Assembly: GCA_028712885.1 (NCBI GenBank)
Contig: JAQTPK010000012.1
Span: 5,001 to 57,350, forward strand
Direction of reading: 5' to 3'
DNA: 52,350 nucleotides
From: Syntrophales bacterium
GTDB taxonomy: Bacteria > Desulfobacterota > Syntrophia > Syntrophales > UBA4778
A program made the translations under genes and the position numbers. The notes under the pieces are model-generated. The model searched no databases, was not told the DNA's origin, and saw only the letters and a program-made list of their open reading frames with translations. This document shows positions 4,385 through 34,795 of this stretch, in pieces (the first letter of the stretch is position 1; each line of letters begins with the position of its first letter).

Positions 4385-4575
4385 TCGTAAAAACCCCCGC
4401 AATGCCGTGTTGTATTACCCTTTTGAACCGAGCCCAAAAGGTGGAGGCCGCCTATTTGCTTCAGGCTTCCCGCCGCCCGTAAGCGCGGGCATGCTCACCG
4501 CAAATGCAGTATGGCTTCCGTTTTCTATGTGTTGGCTCAAAAAAAATAAACAATCACGAGCACCGCAGGGGAAAC
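4385..4575 (-). ncRNA. ssrS: 6S RNA
   Basis: 6S RNA binds sigma70 RNA polymerase holoenzyme by mimicking an open promoter. Conserved features are readable on the minus strand. A 12-bp closing stem joins 4571-4560 to 4405-4394, all pairs being Watson-Crick or G-U. The hallmark segment GGTGAGCATGC lies near 4499-4489. Further on, segments corresponding to the CACCTT..GAACC..AAGGGTTA part of E. coli 6S RNA are present as ccacctttt and ggttcaaaagggta. The closing stem runs into five T residues, as in a terminator. Location directly after zapA is the classical proteobacterial arrangement. The ends are approximate. Confidence 0.88.
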
Positions 4576-6182: not shown

Positions 6183-6775
6183 GGATTATCCCTTTCCCTG
6201 CATATTTATCATCATTCCGGTGACGGGTCCATTGGGTCAACGGGCGTTATGCACTGGGCATTGGGCATTAGGCATCAGGTGTTGGCGAAATAAGGGAGCC
6301 GGGCGGGAAAGGCGCGAAATGCGGGACAGGGGTCTTTTGCGTCCATTGCATCCGTTTCGTCCGTTGCGTCCATTGAGTCTATTGAGGTTCATGATACTGG
6401 CGCTCAACAGATAGTTTCTAATTTCGGGTTTCTGGTTTCGAGTTGCCTTGGAACAAGAAATAACTCGATACCCGCGACTCGAAACTATAAACTTTTTACC
6501 GATGGACGCGAAGGAACCAACGGACCCCTTCCACGCCCTTCCCGCCCTCCCCGCTTTTCTCTCCTTTCCCGCATTTCCCGCTATTCCCGCATTTCGCGCA
6601 TTTCCCGCTTTTAAAACGCAATGGATGCAGATGCAACAAGCGCAACGAACGTTACGAACGCGAAGACCCACAGGACTCAACAGATCAGATCAAAAAAAGT
6701 TTTTTTCGCCTTCTGATCTGTGATATAGGGGGGATTCAATTTATTTCTTGAGTAATACAATTTGGGGAGGATTGT
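6183..6775. repeat. Repeat-filled intergenic region between divergent genes
   Basis: No convincing gene. Several short-word arrays lie side by side. Words of the gcattgggcattagg type are near 6240-6285. TTGCGTCCATT-type words are at about 6335-6392, and near-complementary acgcaatgg/cgcaacgaacg words are at about 6620-6665. CCCGCATTT-type words are at about 6535-6612, with related gcgggaaaggcg words near 6300. The open frames across this region are by-products of the short periodicity. Promoters for dusB and for the response regulator must lie within or beside it. Confidence 0.75.
6680..6721. promoter_or_regulatory. Inverted repeat upstream of response regulator
   Basis: ACAGATCAG (6680-6688) and its exact reverse complement CTGATCTGT (6713-6721) flank an A/T-rich spacer with runs of A and T. 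It could be a regulator-binding palindrome or a stem-loop. A second small inverted repeat, ACAAT..ATTGT (6757-6775), encloses the ribosome-binding GGGGAGG of the gene. Confidence 0.4.
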
Positions 6776-26631: not shown

Positions 26632-26660
26632 TTGACACCCTCGGGTGAAAAATATATTCT
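26632..26660 (+). promoter_or_regulatory. Sigma70-type promoter for the fluoride leader
   Basis: A perfect TTGACA (26632-26637) is followed after 17 nt by TATTCT (26655-26660); the overlapping TATATT at 26653 has a 15-nt spacer. The expected start, about 26665-26667, falls at the first base of the aptamer. Confidence 0.75.
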
Positions 26661-26664
26661 GATC

Positions 26665-26713
26665 CTGGTGATGGGGTTCACCATAACCGCCGCAAGGCTG
26701 ATAACTCCTGCAG
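26665..26713 (+). ncRNA. Fluoride riboswitch aptamer (crcB RNA)
   Basis: The sequence fits the fluoride aptamer. The first stem is GGTGA/TCACC (26667-26671 with 26678-26682) around the loop TGGGGT. Then come ATAACCGCC, a short stem GCC-GCAA-GGC, and the 3' segment TGATAACTCCTGCAG. The pseudoknot pairs GGGGTT in the first loop with AACTCC (one G-U), as in the known structure. Known members sense fluoride ion and usually control crcB, eriC-F or fluoride-sensitive enzymes. Here the next gene is a dynamin-like GTPase. Confidence 0.92.
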
Positions 26714-26773
26714 TCATTTCCTGGAGGAGTTATCAGGTTAAAGCTCCTCCAGAAAAACCGGAGGAGCTTTTTT
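26698..26773 (+). terminator. Riboswitch expression platform with intrinsic terminator
   Basis: Three mutually exclusive helices are visible. An anti-aptamer hairpin pairs CTGATAACTCCT (26698-26709) with AGGAGTTATCAG (26725-26736). An antiterminator pairs CTGGAGGAG (26721-26729) with CTCCTCCAG (26744-26752). The terminator pairs AAGCTCCTCC (26741-26750) with GGAGGAGCTT (26760-26769) and ends in T6 (26768-26773). Ligand binding would hold AACTCC in the pseudoknot, free CTGGAGGAG to form the antiterminator, and turn the gene on. The ribosome site GGAGGAG of the next gene lies in the terminator's 3' arm. Confidence 0.88.
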
Positions 26774-28465
26774 ATGAGTACCGAACCGGCGCCTCTTGCG
26801 TCCCCAATGCGGCACGCATCCTCTTTACTGCGAAATATAGAAAACATCTGCTCGCGTTATCAGCTCGCCTCTTTGCGCCGCCAGATCGATTCATGCAGGA
26901 AACTTCTTTCGACAGCCCCCCTCATAGATATTGCCGTTCTGGGCCAATTCAAGGCGGGGAAGAGTTCTTTTCTTAACAGCCTCATCGGCAAGTCCGTTCT
27001 TCCGGTCGGAGTGGTACCTGTGACTACGGTAATCACGTGCATTCAGTACGGAGAGCAGGAACGGGCGGTCGTCTCTTTTTTTGACGGCAGCCGGATCGAA
27101 GTCGATTTGAGCAGGCTGGAGGATTTCACATCCGAAGCAAAAAACCCGTCAAATAAAAAAAACGTGGAGACGGTGGATATCGAACTCCCGGTTCTGAAGA
27201 ACTATCCCGGACTTCGCCTTGTCGATACTCCGGGTATGGGGAGTATTTTAAAAACCCATATGGAAATATCCGAAGGCTGGCTTCCGGAAGTCGGGGCGGC
27301 TATTCTTGCGATCAGCGCCGACCGGCCGCTTTCCGGAAACGATCTCCAGCTGATCCGCGGACTCGCCCGGCATACCCCCAAGGTCGTGCTGCTTCTGACG
27401 AAGGTGGATCTGCTTTCGCCGGAACAGCAGTCGGAAGTAGTGAAATTTTTCAGCGATTCGCTGAAGCGCGAACTGAACCGGGAGCTGCCTTTATTTTTTT
27501 ATTCCAACCGGTCCGGCACGGATCAGTTCAGGGACAGGCTCAACGAGGAGCTCCTGTTCGAGTTGTCGCGGAACCGCGATTTCGAGTCAAGGAAAATTCT
27601 TCAGCACAAGGTGCTGTCCCTGGCCGGCAGCTGCCTGGGATATCTCGATATGGCGCTGAGCGCCTCCCGTCAGGCGGATATGGACCGGGATCAGTTACGG
27701 AACAAGATTCTGGACGAGAAGTTGAATTACGATCTCCTCCGGGAGGAGCTGTATATCATCTCCAGGGAAAACCAGAGGCAGACACGGCCCCTCATCGCCG
27801 GCTATCTTGAGAATATCCGGAAGCCGCTGAAAACAAAAATTATGAATCAGCTCACCCGTGAAATAGAAGAATGGGATGGGAACCTCTGGAGGCTGACCCG
27901 AAAATACGAGGATTGGGTGGCCGAAACGATGACGGAAGAAATGAGACAAGTCTCAAGGACCGAGCACCGGCATTTTTTCGGCACCCTGAAAAAGGCTCAC
28001 GCCGGCTTTGACCGCTCTCTGGAGGCGTTCAGAAATCACCTCGGCGGGAATGTGAAAAAGGTGCTTGGAAAAGAACTTTCGTATTCAGAGTTTAACCTGG
28101 AAGTAGCGGAACCGTCTCAGCCGGATATAAGGACGCCGGTCTGCTTCGATATCCATCTCGATCTGATCTGGTTTCTGATTCCCATGTTTATATTCCGGCC
28201 GCTTTTTGAAAGAAACTTCTTAAGCAAGCTCCCGCGCGAAATAGAGACAAATCTCTCCCGGCTGGCCGCCCAGTGGGAGGATACTATCAATCGTATGATC
28301 GAGCAGATGCGCAAGCAGGCCGTCCGCTACGTCGGCGACGAGCTTGCGACGATAGAGGGCCTGCTATCGAACGCCCAGGGCAGGACAGACGAAATCATGC
28401 GCGACATGGACGAACTGCGCGCGCAGGAAGAAATCCTTTCCTGTCGAACAAACCATATTCGATGA
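26774..28465 (+). CDS. Dynamin-family GTPase under fluoride riboswitch
   Basis: Large GTPase of 563 residues. The G domain has a P-loop GQFKAGKSSFLNSLIG (about residue 56 on), a VVPVTTVIT switch-like stretch, DTPGMGS (G3) and LLTKVDLLS (G4). A helical stalk follows. A hydrophobic patch near residues 455-475 (LDLIWFLIPMFIFRPLF) could be a membrane-inserting paddle, as in bacterial dynamin-like proteins that act on membranes. The C-terminus is again helical. ATG 26774 follows T6 of the riboswitch terminator, with GGAGGAG 7 nt upstream. It overlaps the next gene by ATGA. The link of the GTPase to fluoride is unexplained. Confidence 0.9.
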   Translation: MSTEPAPLASPMRHASSLLRNIENICSRYQLASLRRQIDSCRKLLSTAPLIDIAVLGQFKAGKSSFLNSLIGKSVLPVGVVPVTTVITCIQYGEQERAVVSFFDGSRIEVDLSRLEDFTSEAKNPSNKKNVETVDIELPVLKNYPGLRLVDTPGMGSILKTHMEISEGWLPEVGAAILAISADRPLSGNDLQLIRGLARHTPKVVLLLTKVDLLSPEQQSEVVKFFSDSLKRELNRELPLFFYSNRSGTDQFRDRLNEELLFELSRNRDFESRKILQHKVLSLAGSCLGYLDMALSASRQADMDRDQLRNKILDEKLNYDLLREELYIISRENQRQTRPLIAGYLENIRKPLKTKIMNQLTREIEEWDGNLWRLTRKYEDWVAETMTEEMRQVSRTEHRHFFGTLKKAHAGFDRSLEAFRNHLGGNVKKVLGKELSYSEFNLEVAEPSQPDIRTPVCFDIHLDLIWFLIPMFIFRPLFERNFLSKLPREIETNLSRLAAQWEDTINRMIEQMRKQAVRYVGDELATIEGLLSNAQGRTDEIMRDMDELRAQEEILSCRTNHIR

Positions 28466-29310
28466 AACCCTCCGATCGGGAAAGCATCATCAGGTACGTC
28501 CTTGGCCGGAAATGCGCTTCCGGGGGATTCTGTTTTTACCGGCTTGACGAACCAAACGGATCGGATACTTTTTACGCCCTGTCCGTACTGAAAATTATCG
28601 GTTTTGATTTCAGGGACGACAGGACCCTCCTTTATCTGAAGTCGATGCAGAACCCGGACGGCTCGTACGACAGCGTATTCAAGGCATTCTATTCGCTTCA
28701 GGGCCTCCGTCTCATGAATGGAACCCCGGCGTCGTATCCTGCCCCCTATATCCGGAGCCAGCTGAGACCGTACGACGTCGCTCTCCTCCCTCCCGAAGTT
28801 TCCTCCATTTTCAAACAGATGTTTACTGTCGTCGAACTCTGTTCCGCATGGGGCATCCGGTTGGAGCAGGAGGCCAGGCGCAACGCAGTTCGTTTCATCC
28901 TTCGATTCCGGAACGGCGACGGCGGGTTCGGATCGCCTTATTCGACCCTCATCGAAACCGCCCAGGCATTGGAGATGCTGAACATGCTGAACTGTCCGGA
29001 AGCATTGAATGCGGCTGAGGCTTTTGTCGTTGGGTGCGAAAGCCCCGTTCACGGTTTCGTTAACGTGCCCCGAACCTCGCTCTCGTATATCGAATACATG
29101 CATGCCGGCGCAGTCGCTCTCTCGCTTTTATCCAGTAAGCCTGAATACCCTGACAAGTGCACGGAAGTCATCTGGGCGTGTCGAAACAGGAACGGAGGAT
29201 TTTCCAGGGCGTCGCACGCGGGAATAGCGACTATTGAGGACACCTATTACGGCGTGCACGCCTTGAGTCTCTTCTCAGAATTCCCCGCCGGGCAATTAAA
29301 AATCAGCTGA
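28462..29310 (+). CDS. Prenyltransferase/squalene-oxidase-fold repeat protein
   Basis: A protein of 282 residues built of alpha-alpha barrel repeats. QNPDGSYD, RNGDGGFGSPYST and RNRNGGFSRAS are the GG(F/Y) repeat signatures of protein prenyltransferase beta-like and squalene cyclase-like proteins. The end EDTYYGVHALSLF is also typical. The DxDD motif of cyclases and the zinc ligands of prenyltransferases are not evident, so it may be a non-catalytic or unknown-substrate member. ATG 28462 overlaps the dynamin stop as ATGA, so it belongs to the fluoride-controlled transcript. Confidence 0.8.
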   Translation: MKPSDRESIIRYVLGRKCASGGFCFYRLDEPNGSDTFYALSVLKIIGFDFRDDRTLLYLKSMQNPDGSYDSVFKAFYSLQGLRLMNGTPASYPAPYIRSQLRPYDVALLPPEVSSIFKQMFTVVELCSAWGIRLEQEARRNAVRFILRFRNGDGGFGSPYSTLIETAQALEMLNMLNCPEALNAAEAFVVGCESPVHGFVNVPRTSLSYIEYMHAGAVALSLLSSKPEYPDKCTEVIWACRNRNGGFSRASHAGIATIEDTYYGVHALSLFSEFPAGQLKIS

Positions 29311-29548: not shown

Positions 29549-30433
29549 TCACTCGAACACTATCGTTTTCTGGCCATGCACCAATACCCGCCGCTCCAGG
29601 TGCAACCGGACCGCTCTGGCCAGGACAATGCGCTCCAGGTCCTTTCCTTTTATTCTCATGCCCTCTATTGCATCCCGGTGGCTGATCTTTATCACGTCCT
29701 GGGCGATGATCGGTCCGTCGTCAAGGCTCTCCGTCACGTAATGACTGGTGGCTCCGATGACCTTGACTCCGCGGTGATAGGCCTGAAGATAGGGATCGCC
29801 TCCCGCAAAGGCGGGGAGAAACGAATGATGGATGTTGATGATGCGGTGGGGGTAGCGGTCGACGAAATCGTTCGTCAGGACCTGCATGTAGCGAGCGAGC
29901 ACGATCAGGTCTACCCCGTGCTTTTCCAGCTCCTCTATTTCCCGCCGCTCCTGTTCCCGCTTGCTTTCGGGCGTAATCGGGAAGTGCAGGAAGCTTGCCC
30001 CGAACTGCTCCGCCACCGGCCGCAGGTCGGGATGGTTGCTTATGACCAGCGGGATCTCGGCGCTGAGCTCTCCCATCCGGCGCCGCAGCATCAGGTCGTG
30101 CAGGCAGTGCGGGTGCCTGGACGCGAATATGGCTATCCGGGTCGCCACATCGGTGAAATGCAGCTCCCATTTCATGCCGAATCTCTCCGCCAGAGGCCCG
30201 AATTCGCGGCCGATCTCATCCCGGCCCAGATCGAACCCTTCCATCTCCCACTCGATCCTCATGAAAAAAATCTTCTGGGTGGCCGTCGTGTGCTGGTCGG
30301 CCGTAACAATATTCCCGTTATGGCCGAATATGAAGTTGGAGACGGAAGCGACTATCCCCCGCTGATCCGGACAGGAGAGGAGAAGAACGGCATGGGCCGA
30401 ATTTTTTGAGTCTATTGCGTTCTTTGCGTCCAT
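29549..30433 (-). CDS. purU: Formyltetrahydrofolate deformylase
   Basis: Hydrolyses 10-formyl-THF to formate and THF, balancing one-carbon pools and supplying formate for PurT. It has an N-terminal ACT domain (VLLLSCPDQRGIVASVSNFI, HNGNIVTADQHT, FFMRIEWE) and a formyltransferase-like catalytic domain (IAIFASRHPHCLHDLM, HFPITPESK, VLARYMQVL, INIHHSFLPAFAGG, YVTESLDDGPIIAQDV). The frame stays open through a repeat tract to 30571, encoding a DATDAK-like low-complexity stretch. ATG 30433 gives 294 residues, the normal length. That ATG lies inside the repeat. Confidence 0.93.
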   Translation of the reverse strand: MDAKNAIDSKNSAHAVLLLSCPDQRGIVASVSNFIFGHNGNIVTADQHTTATQKIFFMRIEWEMEGFDLGRDEIGREFGPLAERFGMKWELHFTDVATRIAIFASRHPHCLHDLMLRRRMGELSAEIPLVISNHPDLRPVAEQFGASFLHFPITPESKREQERREIEELEKHGVDLIVLARYMQVLTNDFVDRYPHRIINIHHSFLPAFAGGDPYLQAYHRGVKVIGATSHYVTESLDDGPIIAQDVIKISHRDAIEGMRIKGKDLERIVLARAVRLHLERRVLVHGQKTIVFE

Positions 30434-30571
30434 TGCGTCTGTTGCGTCCTTTGGGTCCTTTGCGTCTGTTGCGTCCTTTGGGTCCATTGCGTCTGTTGCG
30501 TCTGTTGCGTCCTTTGCGTCTGTTGCGTCCTTTGCGTCTGTTGCATCAGTCGCAATGGACGCTATGGACAT
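30405..30571. repeat. GGACGCAA(C/T)A-type short-word array over the purU start
   Basis: Direct array of 9-nt words (on plus: ttgcgtcct, ttgcgtctg, ttgggtcct variants), about 15 copies, with a lone mirror part at its end (gcaatggacgctatggac). A multiple-of-three period keeps a reading frame open across it. It supplies the ATG of purU. Confidence 0.85.
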
Positions 30572-32132: not shown

Positions 32133-32340
32133 CGTTCATCGCGTGCATTGCGTCCTTTGTGTCCTTGCGTCCCGCGGTCCCGAGCTTCGACTTGATTGGG
32201 ACAAACCAGACGCAGTCGCCATTGCCGCGACGAACGCAATAGACGCAAAGAACGCATGGACGCAACGGACCCAATGGCCGCAACAGACCCAACGGACGCA
32301 ATGACGCAATAGACGCAAAGGACGCAATAGACGCAATGGA
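32133..32340. repeat. Short-word hairpin repeat, GGACGCAATAG family, before rSAM fusion
   Basis: The left part (gcattgcgtcctttgtgtcc) is partly mirrored by a long right array of acgcaatagacgcaaag, aacgcatggacgcaacgg and gacccaatggccgc words, at least 12 imperfect copies. Its last copy supplies the ATG of the next gene. An unrelated stretch (about 32175-32220) forms the spacer. Confidence 0.85.
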
Positions 32341-34795
32341 CTGCACATCCTGGGATGAGATACTGCCTCTGGTAGCCAAGCCGGGCCGTTATATCGGAGG
32401 CGAAGTAAACGCGCGCGTGAAGGACCGCAGCCGGTGCAGGCTTCATTTCGCCCTGGCTTTCCCCGAAGCCTATGAAGTGGCCATGTCTCATCTCGGCCTG
32501 CAGATTCTTTACGACATCCTCAACAGGCATCCCCTGGTTTCGGCGGAGCGGGTCTTCGCACCCTGGCCCGACATGGAAGAGCATCTGCGGGGGAGAAACG
32601 TGAAGCTTTCCAGTCTGGAAAGCCGGTCTCCCCTCAGCAGTTTCGATATCATAGGATTTTCCCTCCAATACGAACTCACCTATACAAACGTTCTCAATAT
32701 GCTGGAGCTGGGAGGCGTTCCGCTGCGGTCAGCCGACCGCAGGGAGGGCGACCCGCTGGTAATTGCGGGCGGACCGTGCGTTTTCAACCCCGCCCCGGTT
32801 TTACCCTTTTTTGACGCAGTAGCCGTCGGTGAGGGCGAGGAGTTGATCACGGAGATCGCCGAAAAAATAATCGGCGGAAAATCGCAGGGATTGTCACGCA
32901 GAGAAATGGTCGAAAGTCTTGCTTCCTTAAACGGAATGTATGTTCCCTCCGTTCACCCCGCCGGCGGCAGGATCCGCAAGCGGACCGTTTCCGATCTGAA
33001 TGCCTGGACGATTCCTTTGACGCCGGTCGTGCCTTCCATTCAGGCGATCCATAACCGCATCAACCTCGAGATTGCCAGGGGCTGCTCGCGGGGGTGCCGC
33101 TTCTGCCAGGCCGGCATGGTATGGCGGCCTGTCCGCGAAAGAAATCCCGGCCTGCTGGAAAGAATGGCTGAAGAAATGATCACCGCAACAGGCCAGGAGG
33201 AGATTTCGCTTCTGTCTCTCAGCACTGGAGATTACTCCCGGATCGGGACGTTCCTTCCCGGGCTCATGAACCGCTTCTGCGGACGGAAAATAGCGGTCTC
33301 ACTCCCCTCGCTGCGGCCGGAAACCCTCACCTCCGCGATGATTGAAGCCGTCCGCCGGGTCCGGAAAACAAGCTTCACCCTGGCGCCGGAGGCGGGAACG
33401 GAATCCTTGCGCGCCAGGATAAATAAAGGCAACACTGAATCGGACCTGCTCGCGACCGCCGGCCGCGTCTTTGAATCAGGCTGGAAGCTGATCAAGCTCT
33501 ACTTCATGCTCGGATTGCCGGGAGAAACGGAGCGCGACATGGACGGCATTGTCGATCTGACGCACAAAGTGCTGCGGGAGGGAAAAGGGAAAATACAGGT
33601 AAACGCGAGCCTGTCCACTTTTGTGCCTAAACCGCATACTCCATTTCAGTGGGAAAGGCAGATCAGCCCGGAGGAGATTGCGGCCGGCCAGCAATATATA
33701 AAAAAAAGACTCCGGAGCCGCAATATTTCCCTGAAATGGCATAACCGGGAAATGACGCTGCTCGAGGGAGTTTTCTCGCGCGGCGACGAAAGAACGGCGG
33801 ATCTTCTGGAATGCGCTTTCCGCCTCGGATGCCGTTTCGACGGCTGGAGCGACAGGTTCCGCTTCGATCTCTGGGAGGAGGCGTTCCGGAGAACCGGACT
33901 GCATGCCGAGGAATGGCTGGGCGGGATAGGCACGGACAGAGGCCTGCCCTGGGACCGGATTGATTGCGGAATCGCCCGCGACTTTCTCCTCGCAGAAAGA
34001 GAAAAAGCTCAGAAAGGCGAAGCCACGGCCGACTGCCGTTTTTCCAAATGCAACCTTTGCGGCGCCTGCGGCGAATCGGTCAGAATAGCGGCTTCGGAAC
34101 AGGCCGCGCCGCAACCGCCGCAGACGGCAACCTCCGCCGCCTTCGAGGCGGATCCAGCCGTTTACCGCCTGAAGTTCGCCAAAACGGGCGCATCGCGGTT
34201 CCTCTCCCACCTTGAAACCTCGGCCGCCCTGATCCGGGCGATCCGCCGGGCGGGCCTTTCTTTCCGGTATTCGGAAGGATTTCATCCCCATCCCAAAATA
34301 TCTTTCGCGGGCGCCCTGCCGGTCGGCGTGGAAGCGCTGGACGAGGCGGCGGATATACGGCTTGAAAACGCAGTCTCCGACCCCGGGAAAGTGCTGGACA
34401 GGATAAACGAAAGCCTCCCCGCGGGCATTCGCGTGCTGGAGATAATCCCGGCCGAAGGCCGGCCCTCCCTGCACCATCTCGCCCGGCGCTCGCGGTACGC
34501 GATATTTCTTCCCGGCGGGAACAGCGTAGCGGAATTGAAAAAGAAGATAGATGAATTCCTGGCTGCGGGTAATTTTCTCATATCCCGGAATGCAAAGGGC
34601 AAATACGTGCAAAAAGATATTCGCCCCCTGATCGAGGAAATTTCCCTTGACGGTGAGGAAGGGAGAATAGATTACACTGTTGCAGCCGGCCCCGCGGGCG
34701 GCGTCCGGCCTTCCGACGTCCTGACCGGCGTTTTCGGGCTGAGCGCGGATGCGGCGGCGCGGGCAAAAGTAATAAAAACAGGAAACGGGTCTTAG
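32336..34795 (+). CDS. B12-binding-like radical SAM protein fused to DUF2344 domain
   Basis: A protein of 819 residues. The N-terminal half fits the TIGR03960 radical SAM family: RYIGGEVNA start, B12-like domain with ALAFPEAYEVAMSHLGLQILY, then RGCSRGCRFCQAGMV with the CxxxCxxC motif (about residues 248-256) and LAPEAGTESLRARINK. The C-terminal 230 residues match TIGR03936/DUF2344 (YRLKFAKTGASRFLSHLE, GFHPHPKISFAGALPVGVE). An internal CNLCGAC lies between. The role is unknown; adjacency to rng is common and suggests RNA modification or processing. ATG 32336 is the only usable start and lies in the repeat. Confidence 0.9.
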   Translation: MDCTSWDEILPLVAKPGRYIGGEVNARVKDRSRCRLHFALAFPEAYEVAMSHLGLQILYDILNRHPLVSAERVFAPWPDMEEHLRGRNVKLSSLESRSPLSSFDIIGFSLQYELTYTNVLNMLELGGVPLRSADRREGDPLVIAGGPCVFNPAPVLPFFDAVAVGEGEELITEIAEKIIGGKSQGLSRREMVESLASLNGMYVPSVHPAGGRIRKRTVSDLNAWTIPLTPVVPSIQAIHNRINLEIARGCSRGCRFCQAGMVWRPVRERNPGLLERMAEEMITATGQEEISLLSLSTGDYSRIGTFLPGLMNRFCGRKIAVSLPSLRPETLTSAMIEAVRRVRKTSFTLAPEAGTESLRARINKGNTESDLLATAGRVFESGWKLIKLYFMLGLPGETERDMDGIVDLTHKVLREGKGKIQVNASLSTFVPKPHTPFQWERQISPEEIAAGQQYIKKRLRSRNISLKWHNREMTLLEGVFSRGDERTADLLECAFRLGCRFDGWSDRFRFDLWEEAFRRTGLHAEEWLGGIGTDRGLPWDRIDCGIARDFLLAEREKAQKGEATADCRFSKCNLCGACGESVRIAASEQAAPQPPQTATSAAFEADPAVYRLKFAKTGASRFLSHLETSAALIRAIRRAGLSFRYSEGFHPHPKISFAGALPVGVEALDEAADIRLENAVSDPGKVLDRINESLPAGIRVLEIIPAEGRPSLHHLARRSRYAIFLPGGNSVAELKKKIDEFLAAGNFLISRNAKGKYVQKDIRPLIEEISLDGEEGRIDYTVAAGPAGGVRPSDVLTGVFGLSADAAARAKVIKTGNGS

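Follow-up and report, generated by a model that had tools for sequence, protein, structure and literature searches.

Here we describe a fluoride riboswitch aptamer that stands directly in front of a dynamin-like GTPase gene, a pairing found again in dozens of bacterial genera, which belong to at least four phyla. It was found in a stretch of 52,350 nucleotides from a Syntrophales bacterium, referred to below as the window. Neither the RNA nor the protein superfamily is new; the dynamin is apparently an unlisted, standing member of the bacterial fluoride regulon. The aptamer, its conserved coupling to the dynamin, the intact GTPase motifs and the dynamin fold are shown here, as are the competing leader hairpins by folding calculations. 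That these proteins form a conserved fluoride-switched dynamin family seems to us very nearly certain if nothing is claimed about the membrane. The complete reading, a fluoride-induced unit whose dynamin protects the membrane, infers fluoride binding, induction, GTPase activity and membrane action alike, and we give this whole chain a probability of about 0.5.

An earlier note on this DNA had recognized a fluoride aptamer with both stems and the pseudoknot, and had named a poor covariance score as a result that would refute it. The score is high: RF01734 matches over its full length (model positions 1-64, E 1e-12) at 55.4 bits, compared with a gathering score, the curated Rfam cut-off, of 34 bits. 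The element therefore stands, and only its start has to be corrected, from 26665 to 26658. P1, P3 and the pseudoknot GGNGUU:AACUCC are all present, so that sequence, two stems and pseudoknot are those of the known crcB motif; the third pseudoknot pair is G-U, likewise in several relatives. Across 25 related aptamers 100 % of cells keep P1 and the pseudoknot and 92 % keep the whole structure, versus 42-55 % when the partners are slid. The 2.93-Mb host genome contains no other fluoride riboswitch. A promoter-like site lies just upstream (Table 1) but is weak evidence alone, as about 1.8 such sites are expected by chance in the scanned region.

Table 1. Features of the aptamer-dynamin locus, in window positions; hairpins and energies are from folding.
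Feature	Position	Strand	Details
Promoter-like site	26632..26660	+	TTGACA-17-TATTCT, 10/12 matches; predicted start in the aptamer's first stem
Fluoride riboswitch aptamer (RF01734)	26658..26717	+	P1, P3, pseudoknot; 55.4 bits
OFF-state hairpin	26698..26736	+	aptamer 3' strand CTGATAACTCC : GGAGTTATCAG; breaks the aptamer; -24.0 kcal/mol
Antiterminator hairpin	26721..26753	+	CTGGAGGAG...CTCCTCCAG; -18.4 kcal/mol; predicted when the aptamer keeps its own 3' strand
Terminator	26740..26773	+	AAAGCTCCTCC...GGAGGAGCTTTTTT; -17.6 kcal/mol
Dynamin-like GTPase gene, 563 aa	26774..28465	+	PF00350 Dynamin_N, 86.6 bits; intact ORF
Prenyltransferase alpha-alpha toroid protein gene (PF00432)	28462..29310	+	start overlaps the GTPase stop (ATGA)

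Between the aptamer and the GTPase gene the leader folds as an expression platform that shares the 3' strand of the aptamer and extends up to the start codon at 26774. The complement of this strand recurs shortly downstream, the three leader hairpins are mutually exclusive in folding, and the fold of the full leader has a z-score of -5.65 relative to shuffled sequence. The terminator stem (CTCCTCC : GGAGGAG, then six T) stands immediately before the GTPase ATG, and its GGAGGAG arm doubles as the Shine-Dalgarno of the gene, seven bases upstream of the ATG, so that ribosome binding would be masked by the terminator as well. If the aptamer is constrained to keep its bases, the growing RNA forms the antiterminator before any other strong hairpin; without this constraint the aptamer is disrupted and the terminator folds. 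At full length the terminator is once more the lower-energy state even with the aptamer held, and the ON outcome thus depends on co-transcriptional folding. By its design this leader is an ON switch, a statement about architecture made without experiment, with fluoride binding and switching both inferred. It resembles in this respect the RF01734 riboswitches already described, in which the terminator overlaps the aptamer and the ligand turns genes on (PMC2864571). We propose that in the absence of fluoride the 3' strand of the aptamer would pair with its downstream partner, so that the nascent RNA would break its own aptamer and leave over a strong terminator covering the ribosome site. With fluoride bound, the aptamer would retain this strand, the antiterminator would form first, and the dynamin and toroid genes would be expressed.

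The earlier note held that recurrent dynamin-like genes behind such aptamers would support the pairing, and the survey bears this out very strongly. A scan of 84,980 species genomes yielded 80 close homologues from named genomes, mostly Syntrophales and Syntrophorhabdales, then Spirochaetota, Bacillota (including the isolate Syntrophomonas palmitatica), Bacteroidota and Chlorobiota. Searching near these genes with a covariance model built in this analysis placed a same-strand aptamer no more than 250 nt upstream of 65 homologues. In nine further homologues, one of them with a weak match, the aptamer lies 0.9-2.9 kb upstream within the same gene string; the remainder are two loci cut by a contig end and four with no aptamer or only a very weak one. 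In nine distant loci the aptamers were confirmed by Rfam's own model. Rfam scores exceed the cut-off in Spirochaetota, Bacteroidota/Chlorobiota and Bacillota as well, so the linkage extends to these phyla. A phylum sample of 395 genomes contains 70 with the dynamin, 158 with the riboswitch and 69 with both (Fisher p = 2e-31). This p-value is uncorrected for kinship and therefore inflated. The physical adjacency is independent of it: of the 75 dynamin loci in the sample, at least 43 have a same-strand aptamer within 350 nt, counting aptamers among the matches listed. Fluoride aptamers are carried by 31 of 60 genomes, mostly of the same order, and are found in all 25 genomes of the order with a riboswitch-type dynamin versus 6 of the 35 others. 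With the pairing conserved in dozens of genera, the possibility that this copy is a local rearrangement from which crcB was lost is ruled out.

Counted by hand, the first gene behind 47 aptamers of the order is a dynamin in about 23 cases, a PF00999 Na+/H+ exchanger in about 12 and CrcB in one; in this order the fluoride switch thus has a dynamin, and not an exporter, as its most frequent direct target. The leaders are also related in design. A duplex of at least 7 pairs with the 3' strand of the aptamer is found at 52 of the 65 closely linked loci (mean length 8.5 versus 6.6 in shuffled sequence), and 26 of the 65 leaders show an archetype, AACTCC...GGAGTT followed by a T-run, mostly right before the dynamin ATG; expression platforms can be made out at only some of the loci. 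Two dynamin clades are riboswitch-linked, clade A, to which the protein of the window belongs, and clade B, about 22 % identical; the tree has long branches and the branching order of the clades is unsure. Sixteen other dynamin paralogues of the same genomes fall outside both clades, and no aptamer was found in the 3.4-6.2 kb around them, even at E = 1. Separately, fluoride aptamers were seen in tandem and divergent pairs (L168:1169-1420, L122, L213, L218-L220 and L232), and some genomes carry many of them (11 in G330, 7 in G386, 5 in G234).

The toroid gene probably shares a transcript with the GTPase gene, given the overlap of its start with the GTPase stop; it recurs in the dynamin operon at other loci and has no obvious membrane role. 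Elsewhere the genes downstream of the dynamins encode enolase (PF00113), a PF00999 exchanger, an AAA_16 ATPase, a DUF6062 protein, HIT, NUDIX and histidine phosphatase proteins and an MFS protein, while pairs of MutS domain V proteins and UspA-like proteins (the latter assigned by eye) sit behind neighbouring aptamers. Enolase is the commonest next gene, at 17 of the 46 loci with a same-strand neighbour. Fluoride-regulon genes among the dynamin neighbours are enolase, the Na+/H+ exchanger, UspA (by eye) and MutS. Since fluoride riboswitches are already known to control enolase, antiporters and MutS (PMC11139923, PMC2864571), our survey recovers the known set and adds the dynamin. Riboswitch-controlled enolase and exchanger genes occur in the same operons as the dynamin, or behind an aptamer of their own in the same genomes; the fluoride link is understood for both, one a soluble enzyme and the other a transporter (PMC11139923), and in this the dynamin differs. 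The presence of enolase in many units might suggest that the switch serves enolase or the exchanger and that the dynamin is merely carried along. But most units begin with the dynamin, at whose start codon the platform ends, and the link is kept in 69 of 70 genomes. Moreover, the next gene is convergent at 15 of 65 loci, where the dynamin is probably the sole target. These single-gene units lead us to reject a passenger of enolase, and the idea of a carried-along dynamin as a whole is nearly excluded.

Two further gene groups were noticed in these surveys. Pairs of MutS-domain-V proteins of about 515 aa lie directly behind fluoride aptamers at L118:2323-5387, with similar-sized pairs in L117, L120 and L174-L176; the domain was tested in L118 only. 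An AAA_16 ATPase and a DUF6062 protein recur together in fluoride-switched operons (L083:2635-4004 on the minus strand, L090, L100 and L108).

The protein itself fits the description first given of it, a dynamin-family GTPase with a possible membrane paddle, the latter insofar as a conserved hydrophobic stretch separates its trunk helices. Motifs G1-G4 are intact, and GQFKAGKSS, T84, DTPG (151-154) and TKxD (209-212) are conserved in 53 homologues. The hydrophobic stretch, at about residues 460-474 (IHLDLIWFLIPMFIF), is flanked by two long trunk helices in an AlphaFold model (pLDDT 85.4, pTM 0.74) in which the tip region itself is of low confidence; W466, F467, P470 and M471 at this tip are invariant in the same 53 homologues, and conservation of the trunk and tip equals that of the GTPase domain. 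The best PDB folds by Foldseek are IniA (6j72, 1.3e-18) and BDLP (2j68, 7e-18), both matched over the full length. TM-scores to full-length dynamins are low (0.31-0.38), probably the effect of a differing angle between head and trunk. Domain movement would lead one to expect such scores, but the same action is not thereby proven. By AlphaFold and Foldseek the protein has the head, helical neck and trunk, and hydrophobic tip that define bacterial dynamin-like proteins. It is a dynamin fold with intact motifs, from which GTPase activity, membrane binding and oligomerisation are only inferred. IniA, BDLP and DynA share the GTPase head, helical trunk and hydrophobic tip, although IniA and BDLP are only 15-18 % identical to the protein of the window, and DynA is two-headed where the latter has a single head. 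We know of no fluoride riboswitch controlling IniA, BDLP or DynA, and to our knowledge the roles of bacterial dynamins are mostly unknown.

GTPases are frozen by fluoride, which together with Mg or Al imitates the gamma-phosphate of GTP; enolase is the classical fluoride target, and an extra enolase offsets the inhibited one. By the same logic the dynamin could be a fluoride-insensitive replacement that takes over the job of a frozen relative, or a decoy that soaks up fluoride-nucleotide complexes. The invariant GTPase motifs and the frequency of enolase as the next gene agree with such a role, which we nonetheless consider unlikely and rank below membrane protection: a decoy would have no need of a trunk and tip as conserved as the GTPase domain, and no close paralogue that the protein could replace was found in its own genome. 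The P-loop lysine K60 was considered as a fluoride-specific feature and ruled out, being present also in the dynamin paralogues without an aptamer.

As the earlier note had stated, the target is not a fluoride exporter. No crcB separates aptamer and GTPase in the window or in any relative whose neighbourhood was read, and neither CrcB nor a CLC protein was found in the 99 % complete genome, so that the locus does not qualify as a CrcB or CLC exporter locus. A fluoride riboswitch without either protein is thus a feature of the host genome, shared by several relatives. Of the 60 genomes of the order, 2 have CrcB and 22 have CLC, and 14 of the 25 dynamin genomes have neither. Where known exporters are missing, the dynamin could conceivably assemble or cluster an ion transporter; one example is the riboswitch-linked Na+/H+ exchanger, which ranks second among the riboswitch targets of the order. 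We regard this as improbable, because the presence of the dynamin is not associated with the absence of exporters in these 60 genomes (Fisher p = 0.59) and because the host genome, with its single aptamer, has no exchanger under riboswitch control. For want of this association the dynamin as compensation for missing exporters is rejected too.

Protection of the inner membrane remains the most likely job of the dynamin, an inference by analogy with DynA and with the fold relatives IniA and BDLP. The protein would work on the inner membrane in a GTP-driven manner, by coating, tethering or resealing, and its action would limit leak of protons or HF, or membrane damage, under fluoride stress. DynA, a membrane-surveillance protein, is believed to be recruited where the membrane is damaged, and its GTPase is required for protection against phage lysis (PMC8844932). 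Fluoride entry as HF weakens the proton gradient (PMC11139923), and a function in sealing or ordering the membrane would fit this. The membrane reading is limited in that there is no experimental fluoride response or membrane binding, and the known stresses for DynA are nisin and phage, not fluoride (PMC8844932). That a dynamin-based membrane defence is the main fluoride response in lineages without known exporters, and a third kind of tolerance beside export and extra target enzyme, is a tentative extension that we would sooner doubt than accept.

Published accounts of fluoride-riboswitch genes give exporters, Na+/H+ antiporters, enolase, pyrophosphatase, MutS and formate hydrogen lyase, and no dynamin (PMC2864571, PMC11139923); in its target the window's switch therefore differs from RF01734 riboswitches described elsewhere. 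A literature search joining fluoride riboswitch and dynamin found no paper, but did not cover the original 2012 gene list, so that the pairing may already appear in one of its tables. The bacterial response to fluoride seems to include dynamins as a standard component that has been overlooked. The RNA sensor identifies the signal that would induce two whole dynamin clades, making their role directly testable. The coupling also brings a protein that probably acts on the membrane into a fluoride response previously described in terms of export, control of pH and the replacement of enzymes that fluoride inhibits. It also bears on organofluorine-degrading and syntrophic anaerobes.

Two other features of the window were recorded. 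A 6S RNA (RF00013, 114.3 bits) lies at 4390-4574 on the minus strand. Tandem arrays of a 9-bp unit, TTGCGTCCT or on the other strand like ACGCAATGG, occupy 30405-30544 and 32224-32341, with a similar unit at 6337-6379; the arrays give the formyltetrahydrofolate-deformylase-like ORF at 29549-30571 (minus strand) an N-terminal Asp-Ala-Thr repeat.
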